From a virus, in IMG/VR virus record IMGVR_UViG_3300031602_000015, positions 1 through 32,886 of that record: a stretch of DNA of 32,886 nucleotides, one strand, 5' to 3'. Position numbers and translations under genes: made by a program. The notes beneath the pieces were generated by a model. The model ran no database searches, had not been told where the DNA came from, and worked only from the letters and a program-made list of their open reading frames with translations. Of the stretch, positions 1,441 to 14,761 are shown piece after piece (position 1 is the stretch's first letter; each line of letters starts with the position of its first letter).

Positions 1441-2709
1441 CTAAACCCCGAAACCGTGACCGGCCATAAAAGGATTAAACGTGGCATACGCAGGCAAGCA
1501 ATCAAATCTAACCTTTTGCGTATTAGCGTCACCGTCTGAATACTTACTAACTCGGATGGACATACCATCTTCAGTAGTAGCAATCGTGTCAGTGGAGTAC
1601 AACTTCGGCAACTTAACAGTACCTATACCAAACGCTTGCTTCATATAGAACAAGTTAGGTTGATAGGTTGTCGCAGAAGCACTAAGTATAGTAACAACCG
1701 CACCATTAGCAGGAGCAGCGTCAACTGTGTTGTACTGACCGTTGGCTTCAAAGATAGCAGGCCCAGCTACTACTAGAGTGCCTGTACCTGTACCACTTAG
1801 AGTTACGTCAGCAGTTACAACACCTGTCCAATGAACCGCAGCACCGTTCTCATCTATCATAGCTGTACGAGAGTTGATGTTTAGACGATTAACATTAGCG
1901 ATCTTAATCATATCGCCAGCCTTAACTACCATGCCTGCCTGTAGAGCAGCAACAGCAATACTCTGCGTCATTGTGTCCTTAGCTGCCAAGTAAGTAGCAT
2001 TTGGAGCAGCACTCAAAGTACCTGCGCGATCTGTGCCAGTACCAGATGTAAACGTGTTCAAGCTCTGAGAAGTCAACGCTCTAAGTCCACCAAAATTGGC
2101 AGAAATCTGGCTGTTTTCCCATGCTGTACGAACAAGTTGATCGGCAGCATTCAGGCCATTCTGTGCGTTTGCAAGTTTAGTAGCCGTAAATGGATTCATA
2201 ACGTAGTATTTATCTGCTTCAGGTGGCACTCCAACGCTATCGAGTAGCGCGCCTGCACCAGCGATATCAGTCCAAGCATCAGCAAAGACACCGTGAGTAC
2301 CATAACGCAGTGAAGCATTCTTCATCATAAAACCACCAAGATCAGTCTCGATATCAGTGACAATTCTTCGCGCCATAGGAGCGAGGATTTGCTCTAACTG
2401 ATCCAGCTCAAGAGCCTCTTGAATGTTCGTGAACTCGGTAGCTACAGTGAAGTAGGGCTGCACCGTACCTGTGGCCTTGCCTGCAATGATGTCAGACTTG
2501 GCTGAGGCAGAAATGTCTCCACCAGCAGTACGGATAGTGTTGTAGTCGTGAGGACGTTTAAAATCCACACTACTACCAGTTGAAGGAGTGAAGCGCCCTG
2601 AAAGCAGTTGAGTATCAACCGTCTTGGTTAGGACTCGTGAACTCTGAAACGCATTTAAGAACACCCGTGCCAGAGGACGGGTTATATTACTTGATAAGCT
2701 ATTAGCCAT
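1441..2709 (-). CDS. Major capsid (coat) protein, P22 gp5-like
   Basis: 422 residues, close to the 430 of P22 coat. The N-terminus (MANSLSSNITRPLARVFLNA) and the FTVATEFTNIQEALELDQLE and IVTDIETDLGGFMMKNASLR segments fit the P22-type HK97-fold coat family. A Thr/Ser/Gly/Ala-rich stretch around residues 220-345 lies where P22 coat carries its inserted I-domain, and the C-terminus returns to core-like sequence (FYMKQAFGIGTVKLPKL, then CLPAYATFNPFMAGHGFGV). ATG 2709 is preceded by GAGGTAG about 9 nt upstream, a good ribosome site that fits high expression. Scaffold lies immediately upstream (16-nt gap) and a strong terminator follows. Family call is firm. Confidence 0.9.
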   Translation of the reverse strand: MANSLSSNITRPLARVFLNAFQSSRVLTKTVDTQLLSGRFTPSTGSSVDFKRPHDYNTIRTAGGDISASAKSDIIAGKATGTVQPYFTVATEFTNIQEALELDQLEQILAPMARRIVTDIETDLGGFMMKNASLRYGTHGVFADAWTDIAGAGALLDSVGVPPEADKYYVMNPFTATKLANAQNGLNAADQLVRTAWENSQISANFGGLRALTSQSLNTFTSGTGTDRAGTLSAAPNATYLAAKDTMTQSIAVAALQAGMVVKAGDMIKIANVNRLNINSRTAMIDENGAAVHWTGVVTADVTLSGTGTGTLVVAGPAIFEANGQYNTVDAAPANGAVVTILSASATTYQPNLFYMKQAFGIGTVKLPKLYSTDTIATTEDGMSIRVSKYSDGDANTQKVRFDCLPAYATFNPFMAGHGFGV

Positions 2710-2725
2710 GATCGTACTACCTCAT

Positions 2726-3529
2726 TTATTCAAAAGTTGCTCCTTTCGGGCCACCAGCTTTGGGGCTTATCCCAGCGCCTTTCGGCGTGTCTAGTGGATC
2801 AGGAGCGGCATTAACATTAGGTTTAAGTTTTCTAGCCTTTGGCATAATGATCTGATCCAAATACAACAACGCTTTATTAGCAGGCATATTTGCCAACTTA
2901 TCCAACTCTAAGAGATTCTGACCTAAGTACAGCGTTCCAAGACTTCCATCTTCTATATCTATCAGATGACTAGACAGCATTGAGTTAATCCCAAACTGGC
3001 CTATCTTGTTTGCTGCGCTTTGCAGATCCTCAGTTTTTACACCAAGGTTCTTAGAGCGTTCTGCGTAGGTTGCGATCTTCGCATTTTGCTCACTAATTGC
3101 TGTTGCTTGCTGCTGACGCTGCATTTCTAGCTGCTGACCTTCTGCGGCCTGCTGCCGTGCTGCGAATTCTGCTCGCTTGGCAATCGCCTCATCACGCTGT
3201 CGGAGCTGATCCTGTATCTCTCTATCAGAGAGGCTATAGAAGTCAGGCACTTTCGGCACTTCGGGCGGCTGTTCTTTAGGAATCCTAGCTTCAAGATCTA
3301 CAAGGCGCTTGCGGTAATCTTCGGCCTGACGCTCTGCTTCTCGCGCCTTCCAAGTCTTCTCGCTTATAGCCTTATCAAATACCTTCTGCTGCTCTTCATT
3401 AAAAACAGGTCTAGTGGATTGTTCTTGGTCTTCACCAGTATCCGTTGATGATTCGGAATCAGTTTCCTGATCTGCAGTTGCTACGTCTTCAAGCTCTAAA
3501 GCCTCATCGACCATATCTTCTGGTTGCAT
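2726..3529 (-). CDS. Scaffolding protein, P22 gp8-like
   Basis: 267 residues (P22 gp8 is 303). The first 45 residues are very acidic, followed by a long charged coiled-coil region about residues 45-165 rich in Glu, Gln, Arg and Lys (e.g. RQRDEAIAKRAEFAARQQAA). A short hydrophobic-helical part follows (about 170-240), then a basic C-terminus containing MPKARKLKP, and the protein ends KGATFE. A basic C-terminal coat-binding end is the hallmark of P22-type scaffolds, which direct procapsid assembly and then leave. Position between portal and coat agrees with P22, apart from an inserted gene upstream. Its 5' leader is a 350-base non-coding stretch full of inverted repeats. Confidence 0.8.
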   Translation of the reverse strand: MQPEDMVDEALELEDVATADQETDSESSTDTGEDQEQSTRPVFNEEQQKVFDKAISEKTWKAREAERQAEDYRKRLVDLEARIPKEQPPEVPKVPDFYSLSDREIQDQLRQRDEAIAKRAEFAARQQAAEGQQLEMQRQQQATAISEQNAKIATYAERSKNLGVKTEDLQSAANKIGQFGINSMLSSHLIDIEDGSLGTLYLGQNLLELDKLANMPANKALLYLDQIIMPKARKLKPNVNAAPDPLDTPKGAGISPKAGGPKGATFE

Positions 3530-3664
3530 CTTATACCTACTGTTATGCCGTCAAATAAACGGTGACGTTCCGTGCCTCCATAAAAGCGTGGAGTACGCTA
3601 GTGGTCAAATATACCACAATTTGATAAAAAGCAATACTTTCATACAGCTTTTTTAAATCCGTGG

Positions 3665-3707
3665 CTACGGACAAAACAAGAGTTTTTTAATTGAGTTTTG
3701 TCCGTAG
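3665..3707. repeat. 13-bp perfect inverted repeat
   Basis: CTACGGACAAAAC (3665-3677) is the exact reverse complement of GTTTTGTCCGTAG (3695-3707), separated by a 17-nt AT-rich spacer. Neither strand has an adjoining T-run, so it is not a standard terminator. As DNA it could be a dimeric protein-binding site; as RNA a long hairpin. Its right arm shares three bases (TAG, 3705-3707) with the next 8-bp repeat, so the two hairpins compete at that edge. Confidence 0.8.
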
Positions 3708-3772
3708 GCAGGTTTTCGTGTATTTTTATTGCAAATTCCTGCCTAGATAAAAACGCCAATCTTAGTTAAGGT

Positions 3773-3840
3773 GGAAGCGGCACTCCGTGCGAGGCTCCGA
3801 TAGATTACCGCCCGTGGATTCGAACCACTATTACGCTTCC
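3773..3840 (-). ncRNA. Cloverleaf-like element with a T-arm-like hairpin (not a canonical tRNA)
   Basis: On the minus strand a perfect 7-bp helix GGAAGCG/CGCTTCC (8 bp counting a flanking T-A pair) encloses about 54 nt that can form three hairpins. The first is GTGG TTCGAAT CCAC, identical in form to a tRNA T-arm loop (TTCRANT). The second is CGGTA ATC TATCG, and the third is GCAC GGA GTGC. The T-like arm comes first rather than last, the other loops are too short for D and anticodon arms, and no canonical acceptor partner follows the T-arm, so this is not an ordinary tRNA. Options: tRNA-mimicking leader RNA, a decayed tRNA fragment or att remnant, or chance pairing in a repeat-rich leader. 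Confidence 0.4.
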
Positions 3841-3879
3841 ATAAATCGTTTATGCAATTCCTCTCAATGCTGACATTTC

Positions 3880-5961
3880 TTAGTTTGCTCTGCGAGCTTG
3901 TATATCTTTCAGCATCTCTTCAGTTATCACACCGCCTCTAGTGCCTCGGCGCAAAGTGTATTGTTCTTTCGCTAAAGTAGATGGATCAGCTCTAAGCAAA
4001 GAATCAACGCTGTCAAATCCTCTGGCGCTTACAAGATCAGGCATTAACTCAAAGACATTTATATCTTGCTCTCTCAAAATGCCTTCAGGTCTTCCTGCTA
4101 ATCCTTGACCATAGGTGCGATGACCAGACACTTCAAACCTTGAATCACCATATGGATTTGCAATACCAACATTTTGAAGATTGAAATCAGGAGCGTTGTA
4201 TTGAGCGCGATCACTTACAGCCAATCTTGCTTGTCCTATACCTAGACCTCCTTCGTTTCTCAAATCTCTATCCATAACTTGCAATAACGATTTTCTTGGA
4301 TCGCCTGTCATTTCTCTAATCTGATCTATGCTTTCAGGATTATCTATTCCTTTCCACGTTGGATAGAATTCTTTTATGGTCTTGTCTGCTTGACTCTTTG
4401 CTTTCCTAGAAACAGCATTTCTAGCGTGAGTAACCATTACCTCTCCGGTCATAGTAGAGAAGTCTCCACCACTTGGGGCCATCCGGTAAGGCAACATAAG
4501 CACCTCATCAGCTATTGGCTTGCCATCTAATCCCATAAATGAGTTTAAAAAGGCTGATGTCGCTCCTCTATCTTGCGCCCAGACTTGTCCTTCTCTGCCT
4601 GCTGGGTTGGAAAACATAAAGTCTTGACCGCCTTGCAGCTCTACAGGCAAGTCATAATTAACTCCTTCAGCTCCAGTGATACGAGATCCAGCCTTTGTCC
4701 TATCTGCCATAGTTATTCTAAATGGCTTTCCTTCATAATCAAAAATACTAACTTCAGGACGCGCTATAGGCGATCCTTCATATGTTAGCTCTGTATCTGA
4801 TATACGTTGCTGTTCTTTAGCACGACTGTCAAACCTTGGATCAAAGCCTTCATCTCCTATGCGAAACGTCTCTCGCAGCGCCGAGCCGCCAGCAATAGCT
4901 GAGCCTTGCCTGCCGCCGCCTGAGTATAGGTCTGTAGTATCGTAGTTGAGAGCCGAGCGTGTATCCGTATCTGGGAAATAGTTGACTCTTTCAATGATGC
5001 TTCCATCTGCATCGATTACTTCAGCACCTATAAAACCTTCATCTATATTTTTTTGAGTTAAATTCTGGCTGTATTCAGGATTTTTTTGAGCGACAATGCC
5101 CATCCCAGCCTTATCCATTAAAGAATACTGCTTATAGTTTCCACGCCTTGTTATATATGGGAAAACATTAGGGTCACTATAGTCTCCTGCTTCATTCCTA
5201 AATCTAGGAGCTGCCGTATTTGCATAGAAATCAGATATCCTAGATCCTTCTGGTGTAGCACCGTAGAAACCTTCTCCTATAAAACCAGAATCTCTAGCAC
5301 CTGTTTTGCTAGATGTTGGCTGTCTTATATCGTCAGATGTGCCATGCAAGAATAGATTCTCAGTATCCATTCCTTGTCTTTCAAGCTCATCCATAGACTT
5401 TCTTTGGTCAGGCGTATAGTTAGCTGTTTTGCTTCCCATTGTGCCAAGAATTACTTGGTTGCTGGGAGTGTTCCTTACAGCCTTCATACCAGCGCCACTG
5501 CCTCCCATAACCAAAGTAGGATCAAACTCTACAATTCTCCTAGTTTCTGGATCATAGTATCGACCATCAGAGCCTGCTGCTCGCATTTGCTCGTCTATCA
5601 TCTGCGGAACAGCTTTGACAACTCCTCTGATAGCACTGACAGCTTTGCCAGCAGCTTGCGATTGCTCGTTAGCATCACCAAAGAAGATGTCATTAAGAAA
5701 AGATCCAGCAGACCTAGCGCCTCTGAATGCCGGACTGTATGAGGAATCTATCTCAGTCTCACCGTACTGAGCCGGAATTGTTTCGACTATAGCTTGACCA
5801 CTATCATCAAAGTCTACGATCTGGCTTTCCTCTTCGCTAAGAATTTCTCTACGAAAAGGTAGCAGCAAGCCGCCAAGAGTAGAGTCTCCACCGTACTTGT
5901 AGTTCTTCTCAGCCATTTGGTTAATAGCCGATGATCCTGCGCTGGGTCTACGTTCAGCCAT
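3880..5961 (-). CDS. Large virion-cluster protein with an ADP-ribosyltransferase-like region (polyvalent type)
   Basis: 693 residues. Residues about 203-345 read like an ART domain of the kind found in phage polyvalent proteins: NLFLHGTSDD (His206-Gly207), GFIGEGFYGAT (Gly229-x-Gly231-x-Tyr233), SRISDFYA, and a closing YFPDTDTRSALNYD. H206 and Y233 would match two of the H-Y-E type NAD-site residues; the third is not certain (E314 in GFIGAEVID is one candidate). Residues about 400-560 (IFDYEGKPFRITMADRTKAG, GGQDFMFSNPAGREGQVWAQ) resemble a region common in large phage polyvalent proteins. No signal peptide or membrane segment. It overlaps the portal gene by 8 nt and precedes scaffold, a slot with no gene in P22, so it is probably packaged or ejected with DNA. 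Enzyme activity is inferred. Confidence 0.6.
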   Translation of the reverse strand: MAERRPSAGSSAINQMAEKNYKYGGDSTLGGLLLPFRREILSEEESQIVDFDDSGQAIVETIPAQYGETEIDSSYSPAFRGARSAGSFLNDIFFGDANEQSQAAGKAVSAIRGVVKAVPQMIDEQMRAAGSDGRYYDPETRRIVEFDPTLVMGGSGAGMKAVRNTPSNQVILGTMGSKTANYTPDQRKSMDELERQGMDTENLFLHGTSDDIRQPTSSKTGARDSGFIGEGFYGATPEGSRISDFYANTAAPRFRNEAGDYSDPNVFPYITRRGNYKQYSLMDKAGMGIVAQKNPEYSQNLTQKNIDEGFIGAEVIDADGSIIERVNYFPDTDTRSALNYDTTDLYSGGGRQGSAIAGGSALRETFRIGDEGFDPRFDSRAKEQQRISDTELTYEGSPIARPEVSIFDYEGKPFRITMADRTKAGSRITGAEGVNYDLPVELQGGQDFMFSNPAGREGQVWAQDRGATSAFLNSFMGLDGKPIADEVLMLPYRMAPSGGDFSTMTGEVMVTHARNAVSRKAKSQADKTIKEFYPTWKGIDNPESIDQIREMTGDPRKSLLQVMDRDLRNEGGLGIGQARLAVSDRAQYNAPDFNLQNVGIANPYGDSRFEVSGHRTYGQGLAGRPEGILREQDINVFELMPDLVSARGFDSVDSLLRADPSTLAKEQYTLRRGTRGGVITEEMLKDIQARRAN

Positions 5962-8200
5962 TCTGCATTCTCGCTATCTCAGAGTCAGACATGAACCTCA
6001 TTGCTTTGCGCTGGGCCTCTGCTCGCATACGCTCAGCCTCCGCTCGCTGCCTATCCATCATGTCAGCCATCTTCTCTTGATTGTCTAGCTCCTCACCCAT
6101 TGCTTGGGCGCTTGTCCTATCAATCGTTGCTCCAGCCTCTTGAGCCTTGATCTGAGTTTCCATGCGCTTAGTCTCAGCGTTGAATGAATCTATCTGGTTG
6201 TCAGCCTGATCGCCTTGCATCTGCGTCTGGAGCTTCTGAGCTTCCAGTTGTAGCTTCATCTGCTCGTTCTGAAGTTTCGCTTGCTCTATCTGCGCTCGGA
6301 GCATTTCAGCTTGAGCCTTCATCTGCTCAGCCTGAGCTAAGACCATATTAGGATCTTGCTGCTGATCTGTTGGCTGCTGCTGCGCTTCCATCATTTCGTC
6401 TTCGGTCATTTGATCTTGTGGTATCAGGCCAGACGCTATCATCTGTGCGCGCTTGCGATCAGAGATCTGCTGAGCTGAAGCAGTAGCCACGTTGTCCAGT
6501 AACACATCACCAGCGATCTGAAGAATAGTAGGATCAACCTTGGCAATCTCAATGATTGTTTCAATAGTCTCCTGTTGACGATTCTTGAAGCTCGCACCAG
6601 CCTTGACCTGTACGTCATAGTTGCCGACTGACAGATCATTAACAGTCACCACATCGCCTGTCTGTTGGTCTATGACTTTCTGATTGATGTCAGCAACATC
6701 ATAAGTATTGTCTTCCTTCAGCAGCCTTACAGTGCGCGCTGAGTCATAGATCTCTGGGATGGCAGCTACTAAGACGCGACCAGTAGCGCGGATGCCAAAT
6801 TCCAACGCCTTGAAGTATTTAATCGTAGAGTTATCGCCTTTGTTCTGTAGAGCATTAATCGCAACGCCAGACTGATTCTGTGGATTATCGCCCATGTTGC
6901 TGCTGAACATGCCAGATGCGTAGGTAATCATGCCTCTCATAGCCTCAGACATTGTGCGTAACGCTGGGTTGATCTGTGCGCCGCCTTGCTGCTGAGGCAC
7001 TTGCGGGAACTCTGGATCTACGTTGAAGAATTGCACCGGATCATGGTTGGTGTTGAGAGTCTGCAATGAATCCTCGTGGCCTGCCGCTTGTCCCATTGTC
7101 ATCCAATACTTAGACCTTGGTGCAAGGCTAGTCTCTGCTACCTCACGGCTAACTGAGTAGTTCAGCACTCGTTGTGAGTCCATGAGCTTTTCTACCAATC
7201 CCCAGAAGATAGTCTTGTTCTCAAATATCTTGTAGTTGGCGTAAATCGGAATCACCGGAATCATATTAAAGACTGTCTTTTTCTTTGCTTCTAACCAATC
7301 ACTAGCGTCAAATAACCGTGAACATACCTCTTTCTTGACGCGCTTACGCCTACGGGTTTCTGTCACTCCGATAGCTTTCAGTTCATCAGAGATCTTCTTG
7401 AAATCATCATTGACCTCATGCACCTGCCCGTTGGACATCATGACTAGCTCGCGCTCTTTCTCTTCGCAATACAGCAGCTCCCCTACGACTACGACCTCAG
7501 CTTTATCATAATACGCCTCGCCATCACGGCCTTCATCGACTGACTGACCAGATGCTTCAGGCCAGCGCCTGTCATACTCATCCTTGCCAATAGCATGCAG
7601 AACGAAGCAATACCGTGAATCAGACTTGTCTTGCTTCTCAGCCGCTGGATCAAACCAGACCCTATCAAGAGCATTACCGATAGGCTCAATGAACAGGTCT
7701 TGGTCAAAGCTATCCTGACTTACATACTTGTGAACAACGCGCCAAGCGCCGAACCCAGATGTAACCATGCTTCTGGCAGAATGACTGTAGACTTCTTTAG
7801 CATCAGACATAGACTCGATATTACGCACAATGCCAGAGTAGGTGTTGCTAATGTCCTTAGTGGAGTTGCCGCCAGCAGGCGAGACGTTTACATCAAACGA
7901 GGCTTGCTCTATCTCTGAGCAGACCTGATCAATTATCGGATTCACCATGTCAAAGCTGTAGCGTGGAGACTTGCTCTCACCAGCATTAGAATACCAATAC
8001 GGCTCCCATTGACCATCACGCTTATCTACAAACAACGCAGCCTCACGGCCATTGTCGCGCAGGTCTTGGTCTGCTGATTGAGAAGACGATAGCAAATTAA
8101 TAATATAATCGTGATCTTTGTACTTGGAGGAATCATAAGTATCCTCGCCGTACTCCTTCTTAGAGTCTTTCTCGTAAACGTAATTGTCTTTTTTAGCCAT
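5954..8200 (-). CDS. Portal protein, P22 gp1-like
   Basis: 748 residues, close to the 725 of P22 portal, far larger than siphophage portals. The core has portal-family features such as the acidic, aromatic N-terminal region with FVDKRDGQWEPYWYSNAGE, the WFDPAAEKQDKSDSRYCFVL segment and the MDSQRVLNYSVSREVAETSL helix. About the last 150 residues are an extended Gln/Met/Ala/Glu-rich coiled coil (EQMKAQAEMLRAQIEQAKLQ), matching the C-terminal barrel helices unique to P22-type portals that run into the capsid. It forms the dodecameric DNA gateway and docks the terminase. The start overlaps the end of the terminase gene by 8 nt; the next gene overlaps its end by 8 nt. Confidence 0.9.
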   Translation of the reverse strand: MAKKDNYVYEKDSKKEYGEDTYDSSKYKDHDYIINLLSSSQSADQDLRDNGREAALFVDKRDGQWEPYWYSNAGESKSPRYSFDMVNPIIDQVCSEIEQASFDVNVSPAGGNSTKDISNTYSGIVRNIESMSDAKEVYSHSARSMVTSGFGAWRVVHKYVSQDSFDQDLFIEPIGNALDRVWFDPAAEKQDKSDSRYCFVLHAIGKDEYDRRWPEASGQSVDEGRDGEAYYDKAEVVVVGELLYCEEKERELVMMSNGQVHEVNDDFKKISDELKAIGVTETRRRKRVKKEVCSRLFDASDWLEAKKKTVFNMIPVIPIYANYKIFENKTIFWGLVEKLMDSQRVLNYSVSREVAETSLAPRSKYWMTMGQAAGHEDSLQTLNTNHDPVQFFNVDPEFPQVPQQQGGAQINPALRTMSEAMRGMITYASGMFSSNMGDNPQNQSGVAINALQNKGDNSTIKYFKALEFGIRATGRVLVAAIPEIYDSARTVRLLKEDNTYDVADINQKVIDQQTGDVVTVNDLSVGNYDVQVKAGASFKNRQQETIETIIEIAKVDPTILQIAGDVLLDNVATASAQQISDRKRAQMIASGLIPQDQMTEDEMMEAQQQPTDQQQDPNMVLAQAEQMKAQAEMLRAQIEQAKLQNEQMKLQLEAQKLQTQMQGDQADNQIDSFNAETKRMETQIKAQEAGATIDRTSAQAMGEELDNQEKMADMMDRQRAEAERMRAEAQRKAMRFMSDSEIARMQNG

Positions 8201-12430: not shown

Positions 12431-12647
12431 TTGGCTCCAACTCCTTGCAGACATCATTGTAGATGCCTTTGTAGTCAGGATGACCGTAATCGCTAGATCC
12501 GTCTGTCATTTGGTGAGTGTCCCAGATCACAACGTCTGAGCAGTAGCGAAATTCCGCAGCAATTAGATCCTGCTTGTCAGCTTTACTCACAACAAGAAAC
12601 GCTCCAAAAATCAAAAACATTAAAAATCCAGCTTTTCGATTTGTCAC
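12411..12647 (-). CDS. Small N-terminally anchored or secreted protein, 78 aa
   Basis: Starts at GTG 12647, which overlaps the TGA of the upstream gene (GTGA) and has AAGGAG 8 nt upstream. A short basic N-terminus (MTNRKAG) is followed by a hydrophobic segment FLMFLIFGAFLVVSKAD, then a polar acidic domain with DGSSDYGHPDYKGIYNDVCK. This is a single membrane anchor or signal peptide with the remainder likely outside the cytoplasm. No family recognised. Early leftward expression could suit a host-membrane or superinfection-exclusion function, but that is speculation. The end overlaps the helicase start by 20 nt. Confidence 0.7.
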   Translation of the reverse strand: MTNRKAGFLMFLIFGAFLVVSKADKQDLIAAEFRYCSDVVIWDTHQMTDGSSDYGHPDYKGIYNDVCKELEPNDQLNP

Positions 12648-12799
12648 TTGTCGTTCTCCTTATCATCTTTTATTGATGCTGCTCTGTAAGCCTTTTCAAA
12701 ATCTGAATTCCAATGTTCATTGTGTGTTTTTTTAAATTCTTCAATTTGTTTAGATGTAAGTGGCTTTTTCATTTCTTCTATGATTTCTGATAATTTCAT
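12644..12799 (-). CDS. Small charged protein, 51 aa
   Basis: ATG 12799 directly follows the TAA of the 126-residue gene, and its TGA overlaps the GTG start of the next gene. The product begins MKLSEIIEEMKKPLTSKQIE and ends KDDKENDK; it is helical, rich in Lys and Glu, with no Cys and no membrane segment. The stop region carries the ribosome site of the following gene, as expected in a tight operon. No family recognised; possibly a small host-takeover protein. Confidence 0.65.
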   Translation of the reverse strand: MKLSEIIEEMKKPLTSKQIEEFKKTHNEHWNSDFEKAYRAASIKDDKENDK

Positions 12800-14241: not shown

Positions 14242-14269
14242 ATTTTACTGGTATCACACGCACTGTCAA
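14242..14269 (-). promoter_or_regulatory. Main leftward sigma70-like promoter
   Basis: On the minus strand a consensus TTGACA (14264-14269) and TAAAAT (14242-14247) are separated by 16 nt, with a predicted start near 14235, 40 nt before the first gene. Two copies of TCACAC (14254-14259 and 14276-14281, plus strand) lie 22 bp apart around the -35 box, placing them on the same DNA face, and a third occurs at 14537-14542. They could be binding half-sites. Everything leftward to 18027 around the circle could start here. Confidence 0.75.
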
Positions 14270-14591
14270 CTCATTTCACACTTATTGATAGGAAAATGTC
14301 ATTTAGATGGTTTGGGACACCTAGTCCTATCTTTCAGCATGATCCGCAGTATTACTATTACCAGAACTCTTCATCATCCGTGATTACTGAGTCAAGTCTC
14401 CTATGTGTCCGCATAAACTGGTTTGCCGCCCGTCCTTTGCTGGTTGGGCGCGATCCCATCACTCTCGGAACACTGCGCTATCTGGGCGTTTAAAGGCTAC
14501 CCATAGGCCATATCGCTGAGTTTCGGTCAGGATTTATCACACCGGATTGCCAATATACTCCAAAACTATAGTGATGTACAATACCCAATAT

Positions 14592-14667
14592 ATGCTGGTG
14601 TAATGTAGTTTCCCTGCTACATCTTGTATCTCCCATCACGAGCCGATACTCTCCGGTACACCAGCAT
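14592..14667. ncRNA. Three-way-junction-like element in the control region (candidate structured RNA)
   Basis: An 11-bp perfect stem ATGCTGGTGTA/TACACCAGCAT closes a 76-nt element. Inside it are two hairpins: ATGTAG/CTACAT with an 8-nt loop (14603-14622) and GTATC/GATAC with a 14-nt loop (14626-14649). The size is tRNA-like, and the bases after the 7-nt GCTGGTG are T-A as at tRNA positions 8-9. There is no T-loop consensus and no anticodon arm, so it is not a tRNA. It may be a leader RNA of the rightward operon, a small regulatory RNA on either strand, or a protein-binding DNA site. Confidence 0.4.
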
Positions 14668-14697
14668 TCTTATTTATCAAACTTTCTTAAAACCAGC

Positions 14698-14726
14698 TTG
14701 CACATGATTTGCACATCCTGTAAAGT
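14698..14726 (+). promoter_or_regulatory. Candidate rightward promoter with 11-bp-phased direct repeat
   Basis: TTGCAC (14698-14703) and TAAAGT (14721-14726) are 17 nt apart; the -35 box is poor, the -10 box fair. TTGCACAT occurs at 14698-14705 and 14709-14716, exactly one helical turn apart, overlapping the -35 and spacer, as expected for an activator or repressor site. Predicted start is near 14733, 29 nt before the first gene. Confidence 0.4.
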
Positions 14727-14761
14727 CGTGACTCCTTTAACGAGAAGATGGGAGTCTACTC

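Follow-up and report, generated by a model that had tools for sequence, protein, structure and literature searches.

The window analysed here, 32,886 nucleotides that correspond to positions 1 to 32,886 of the IMG/VR virus record IMGVR_UViG_3300031602_000015, carries P22-type head genes on its minus strand, where the block comprises terminase, portal, a 693-aa protein, scaffold and coat. The gap between the 693-aa protein gene and the scaffold gene (3530-3879) is 350 nt long, the second largest in the window by an ORF-based gene list. The preliminary description had noted that most gene gaps in this genome are under 20 bases, and 25 of the 35 gaps in that list do fall below 20 nt. Two further long gaps occur at 14244-14761 (518 nt), where the left and right blocks of genes diverge from each other, and at 12458-12799 (342 nt). 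The genes around the studied gap and the features assigned to it are as follows.

5954-8200, minus strand: portal gene, from the gene list
3880-5961, minus strand: gene for the 693-aa protein, between portal and scaffold
3840-3770, minus strand: T-loop junction, 71 nt, GGAAGCG-TAATA-GTGG(TTCGAAT)CCAC-GGGC..GCCT-C-GCAC(GGA)GTGC-CGCTTCC-ACC
3745-3666, no strand assigned: two abutting long hairpins, TAGGCAGG..CCTGCCTA at 3745-3705 and TACGGACAAAAC..GTTTTGTCCGTA at 3706-3666
3601-3634, minus strand: predicted scaffold/coat promoter, TTGCTT at 3634-3629 and extended -10 TGGTATATT at 3616-3608
3599-3576, minus strand: distal pseudoknot PK1, S1 AGCG / L1 TA / S2 CTCCA / S1′ CGCT / L3 TTTA / S2′ TGGAG
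3573-3549, minus strand: proximal pseudoknot PK2, S1 ACGG / L1 AA / S2 CGTCA / S1′ CCGT / L3 TTATT / S2′ TGACG
3527-3548, minus strand: ribosome-binding region and scaffold start codon, ATG at 3529-3527 and a weak Shine–Dalgarno (SD) sequence AGG at ~3538-3536
2726-3529, minus strand: head scaffolding protein, the gene downstream of the studied leader (PHROG 8865, E 3.1e-19)
1441-2709, minus strand: major head (coat) protein of P22 type, next downstream of scaffold (PHROG 283, E 5.3e-77)

The coat protein exhibits 55% identity to that of Pseudoalteromonas phage H6/1 and ~46% to those of Sf6 and HK620. The window scaffold protein has no Pfam match and was assigned from PHROG 8865 and its position among the genes.

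In the gap, the preliminary description had seen a single dense chain of inverted repeats ahead of scaffold and coat. The repeats themselves are genuine: a repeat search recovered their arms, including a 16-nt pair at 3662-3677 / 3695-3710 (94% complementary), an exact 8-nt pair at 3772-3779 / 3834-3841 and a pair at 3837-3845 / 3849-3857. When its folding energy was compared with dinucleotide-shuffled controls, as that description had proposed, the gap was lower than all 100 shuffles on each strand (z -3.88 on the minus strand, which also carries the flanking genes, and -3.50 on the plus). A scan of the minus strand of the gap for intrinsic terminators found none. Alignment of the upstream regions of 27 relatives, however, resolved the supposed chain into three parts that differ in age and distribution. 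The ~110 nt adjoining the scaffold gene are common to all relatives that reach that far, and a 71-nt element farther upstream is present in some relatives and absent in others. Between these two stretches lie ~140 nt with the two long hairpins, found only in the window and its relatives L001 and L002. The long hairpins are near-identical in these three and missing from other close leaders; they contribute most to the folding energy, yet they are the least conserved part of the gap. They constitute an element separate from the pseudoknot leader described below, upstream of the predicted promoter.

The 71-nt element folds as a four-way junction. A 7-bp closing stem leads into UAAUA, a 4-bp arm bearing the loop UUCGAAU, a second arm interrupted by an internal loop and a short arm that stacks on the closing stem, with NCC at the end. 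Among 12 distinct versions, 99.1% of the pairs are formed and 22 cells carry double changes, compared with 8.0 in shuffles and 0-3 when the partners are slid. Because the junction alone folds with a z of only about -0.7 to -2.2, its support comes from this covariation and not from energy. Like tRNA and the module of bacterial Y RNA that resembles it (YrlA, RF02553), it combines a four-way junction, a 7-bp stem with NCC after it (11 of the 12 versions; L489 is without NCC) and a 4-bp T-loop arm, which is of the UNNRA type in all versions. Unlike them, it places the T-loop arm first rather than last, and an anticodon arm with its 7-nt loop is missing. With this stem and NCC, the junction is a candidate RNase P substrate, a class for which cleavage at the 5′ end of the stem would also be expected. 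That order and a negative ARAGORN result led us to reject a tRNA; a permuted tRNA or Y RNA was likewise rejected, ARAGORN and RF02553 both being negative in the window's record. An attP site at a tRNA 3′ end, suggested by the T-loop arm, was also discarded, as the genome matches of the arm are real tRNA genes or chance; no integrase was found among the ORFs searched. In P22-like relatives, the junction sits on the coding strand between the stop codon of the upstream gene and the scaffold region. It is separate from the pseudoknot element and lies upstream of the predicted promoter. As a guess, it might be a tRNA-like intercistronic processing signal or a stability signal.

The junction also occurs elsewhere, on the coding strand in each case: ~15 nt past the terminase large-subunit gene in two phages (L416:306, minus strand; L448:1982, plus strand) and upstream of the terminase small-subunit gene in a third (L489:3847, plus strand). 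By tblastn, these three phages share no head genes with the window.

A conserved extended -10, TGTGGTATATT, sits mid-gap at 3618-3608 on the minus strand; TGTGGTATA is kept, with some changes, in the close leaders and in a second clade, which has TGTGGTATAGTT. A strict sigma-70 scan found no promoter, the candidate included, so the case for it is one of conservation. We infer a promoter before the scaffold leader, with a transcript start at ~3601, just ahead of PK1. Given this position of the extended -10, only ~3601-3530 would be scaffold leader. The earlier placement of the repeats in a 5′ leader is thus correct for this stretch, and the remainder of the gap lies upstream of the predicted promoter. 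In second-clade leaders (L058, L060, L190 and L199), the extended -10 overlaps a palindrome, ACCACAATATGTGGT, which is possibly a DNA operator for the late promoter in that clade.

Beside the scaffold gene, the repeats look like simple hairpins. A pattern search showed instead that the 70-nt scaffold leader holds two tandem H-type pseudoknots, PK1 and PK2, a fold that is invisible to nested folding. Both follow the architecture S1(4 bp)-NA-S2(5 bp)-S1′-L3-S2′, in which the loop of the S2 hairpin pairs back with the preceding four bases. Covariation in homologues, the other check that had been proposed, revealed compensatory changes both in the junction and here. In PK1, AGCG/CGCT changes to AGTG/CACT, and CTCCA/TGGAG changes to CGTCA/TGACG or CGTCG/CGACG. 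In PK2, ACGG/CCGT of S1 changes to ATGG/CCAT or TCGG/CCGA, and CGTCA/TGACG of S2 changes to CCTTA/TAAGG or CGTAA/TTACG. Across 25 distinct leaders, 99.6% of the cells form pairs, and 8 of the 18 pairs are doubly changed, in 32 cells, compared with 5.5 cells in shuffles. None of 500 shuffles reached the observed double-change cell count or score, and controls in which the partners were slid by 1-3 columns gave 0-2 double-change cells. All four helices, including both crossing ones, supply double changes, although S1 of PK1 does so through one pair (C-G to U-A). Under a strict rule, both pseudoknots are present in 43 of 45 distinct leaders, and only 0.06% of shuffles of the window leader contain at least two. 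Over the whole window, the number of pseudoknot matches is not in excess (6 per strand compared with 6.8 in shuffles), and so the case rests on covariation and position. On this evidence, the leader pseudoknots are almost certainly real. They are not frameshift stimulators, because in the window they lie in no gene.

Scaffold and coat relatives were then collected with two wider profiles, and the region upstream of each scaffold start was searched with relaxed lengths. Of 65 non-redundant P22-like scaffold leaders, 48 gave a pseudoknot match, compared with 8 of 237 regions upstream of other ORFs on these contigs and with 60 of 3250 shuffles (1.9%). Some of the 17 leaders without a match have misplaced starts or one mismatch, and others may lack the pseudoknot. 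The 57 pseudoknots found comprise 32 different S1 and 37 different S2 sequences, which indicates that the stem sequences are replaced and their pairing persists. Moreover, they share features that the search did not demand: the last base of L1 is A in 47, the first base of S2 is C in 51 and a G follows S2′ in 42.

The distribution extends to Sf6, HK620, APSE-1, phiSG1, ZP9, NM-3, Vibrio phage 234P9 and H6/1. Sf6 and HK620 carry AGTC-AC/TC-CGGCA-GACT-TAA-TGCCG within the portal gene, at its 3′ end; the other forms include GTCC-TC-CGATG-GGAC-TAAA-CATCG (ZP9), AGG-TA-CGCGA-CCT-TA-TCGCG (234P9) and ATG-TA-CGCGA-CAT-ATT-TCGCG (H6/1). In APSE-1, AGTT-AC-CTGCG-GACT-TCT-CGCAG was read by eye and shows compensatory changes relative to Sf6; the pattern search chose an overlapping alternative there. 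The leader of P22 gene 8 offered only a weak 4+4 candidate, which we rejected because its S2 is broken in the related JM3.2 and IME10. Among distant relatives (the L335, L337, L248 and L258 leaders), tandem pseudoknots were also observed in some and single copies in others, so that copy number changes between lineages. The pseudoknot is retained both where scaffold has its own predicted promoter and where it is operon-internal (Sf6 and HK620), and it thus tracks the scaffold start rather than the 5′ end of a transcript.

Crossing stems, compensatory evolution and a specific link to the scaffold gene therefore characterize this element, and several explanations have to be weighed against them. 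The repeats could act in DNA, with a repressor or activator dimer bound to the two S2 dyads that closely follow the late promoter, and the window arms do form tandem dyads directly 3′ of the predicted promoter. A dyad operator would leave unexplained, however, why S1/S1′ is interleaved with S2 and covaries independently of it. The half-sites, moreover, are wholly replaced between relatives with pairing kept (37 different S2), and in Sf6 and HK620 the pseudoknot lies within the portal gene, beside the scaffold start, all of which makes a DNA operator very unlikely. A metabolite riboswitch appears more improbable still: preQ1-I, SAM-II and SAM-V are known H-type pseudoknot riboswitches, and the structure here is similarly compact, immediately upstream of the ribosome-binding site (RBS) and sometimes tandem, but hardly any unpaired core is conserved. 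In contrast to ligand pockets, L1, L3 and the stems differ in both length and sequence among leaders; the linked gene encodes a structural protein, and Rfam has no matching family.

Conservation of shape alone would also suit a passive role, such as protection of a much-used mRNA at its 5′ end, a nuclease roadblock or an RBS kept free of structure; the predicted window transcript starts at PK1, and the candidate ligand is one that we infer. Such a role is nevertheless doubtful, given that the pseudoknot is kept operon-internally (Sf6 and HK620) and is found only before scaffold, other ORF upstreams on the same contigs being near background. The conserved A of L1, first C of S2 and following G, in addition, suggest recognition over mere stability. 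Recognition, in turn, need not be by the scaffolding protein. Another phage or host protein (coat, ribosomal protein S1 or another RNA-binding protein) could read the pseudoknot and set scaffold translation, as the structure implies only recognition of shape plus a few bases and coat would be equally sensible as an assembly sensor. The P22 precedent points to scaffold itself, and we regard a different protein as unlikely.

We consider it reasonably probable, overall, that the pseudoknots act as an operator for scaffold translation, with the scaffolding protein as their most likely ligand. The conserved core would be a cis-acting RNA, made up of a small H-type pseudoknot or a pair of them immediately 5′ to the scaffold RBS; in the window, the predicted transcript would begin right at the first of these. 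Control at translation is the simplest reading of a pseudoknot that follows the scaffold start whether scaffold has its own promoter or is operon-internal, and control of scaffold translation in cis is quite likely. Free scaffolding protein, that is, protein not locked in procapsids, may bind the pseudoknot and block or disfavour initiation, which would set the scaffold-to-coat ratio. Autoregulation of the P22 scaffold is reportedly post-transcriptional. That the P22 scaffolding protein gene is autoregulated has been published (Wyckoff and Casjens 1985, as cited in PMC5744158), and in T4, gp32 binds a pseudoknot in the leader of its mRNA and represses it (PMC535899). These two precedents make scaffold the likeliest ligand, an identification by analogy for which the prospects are about evenly balanced. 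Counting against the operator reading, P22, in which autoregulation has been described, lacks a supported pseudoknot.

The comparison with T4 gene 32 can be drawn more closely. That operator is a ~25-28-nt H-type leader pseudoknot upstream of the RBS (PMC535899), and the scaffold leader likewise has an H-type pseudoknot in this position. Both precede the gene for a protein needed in stoichiometric amounts, and in both the sequence diverges while the shape is kept. By contrast with gene 32, UUAAA repeats for cooperative spreading were not seen in the scaffold leaders, the pseudoknots are often tandem, the product is a capsid scaffold rather than a single-strand-binding protein, and repression is a proposal drawn from the analogy. 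The autoregulated gene of P22 (Wyckoff and Casjens 1985) is the same gene in the same late-operon place, and Sf6 gp8, which has the pseudoknot, belongs to the P22 scaffold family (PF09306). P22 differs in its own lack of a supported pseudoknot there, and the window scaffold differs in having no Pfam match. Among riboswitches, preQ1-I and SAM-II are also small H-type leader pseudoknots, whereas the scaffold pseudoknots have neither a conserved ligand pocket nor an Rfam match.

The preliminary description had recognized no known riboswitch or ribozyme class in the gap, and this holds: Rfam gave no match at the gathering score in the window or in 14 related loci, and only chance-level matches in the window up to E 10. 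Its suggestion of an RNA-based control element, processing signals or a stable small RNA is partly supported: covariation and low folding energy bear out structured RNA, but not one single element. Operator pseudoknots are already known from phage leaders. This scaffold pseudoknot family appears new, as do its association with scaffold genes and its wide range; no description of a pseudoknot before scaffold genes was found in the literature searched, which was largely open-access. More tentatively, the gap may hold two undescribed phage RNA classes side by side, namely a shape-recognized scaffold pseudoknot operator that is general for P22-type phages, and a portable T-loop junction between late genes that would act as a tRNA-mimicking processing or stability signal. 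We hold this wider view to be possible rather than probable. How phages proportion scaffold to coat has been an open question since the P22 scaffold was found to be self-limiting, and an RNA structure at the scaffold start that may be read by shape across very distant relatives offers a defined 25-nt target, testable in Sf6 and HK620. Such short pseudoknots are missed both by standard searches for RNA families and by nested folding.

In 31 of the 59 leaders of the wide set, the pseudoknot is followed by a hairpin that holds the SD sequence, compared with 22% of shuffles. This weak signal led us to reject a general SD-sequestering hairpin, and it is suggestive only of an output device in some leaders; in the window the hairpin is weak and not clear.

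At the upstream edge of the gap, the 693-aa protein in its window version has no Pfam or PHROG match. Its C terminus varies among close relatives, resembling proteins with exchangeable end domains; the counterparts of the window gene in two relatives are L035:2061-4394 and L123:878-2521. Directly past the stop codon of the window gene lies AATGTCAGCATTGAGAGGAATTGCATAA (3850-3878, minus strand), which in L002, L003 and L010 is the coding 3′ end (..MSALRGIA*) of an alternative C-terminal version of the same gene. We read AATGTCAGCATTGAGAGGAATTGCATAA in the window as the scar of a C-terminal exchange.
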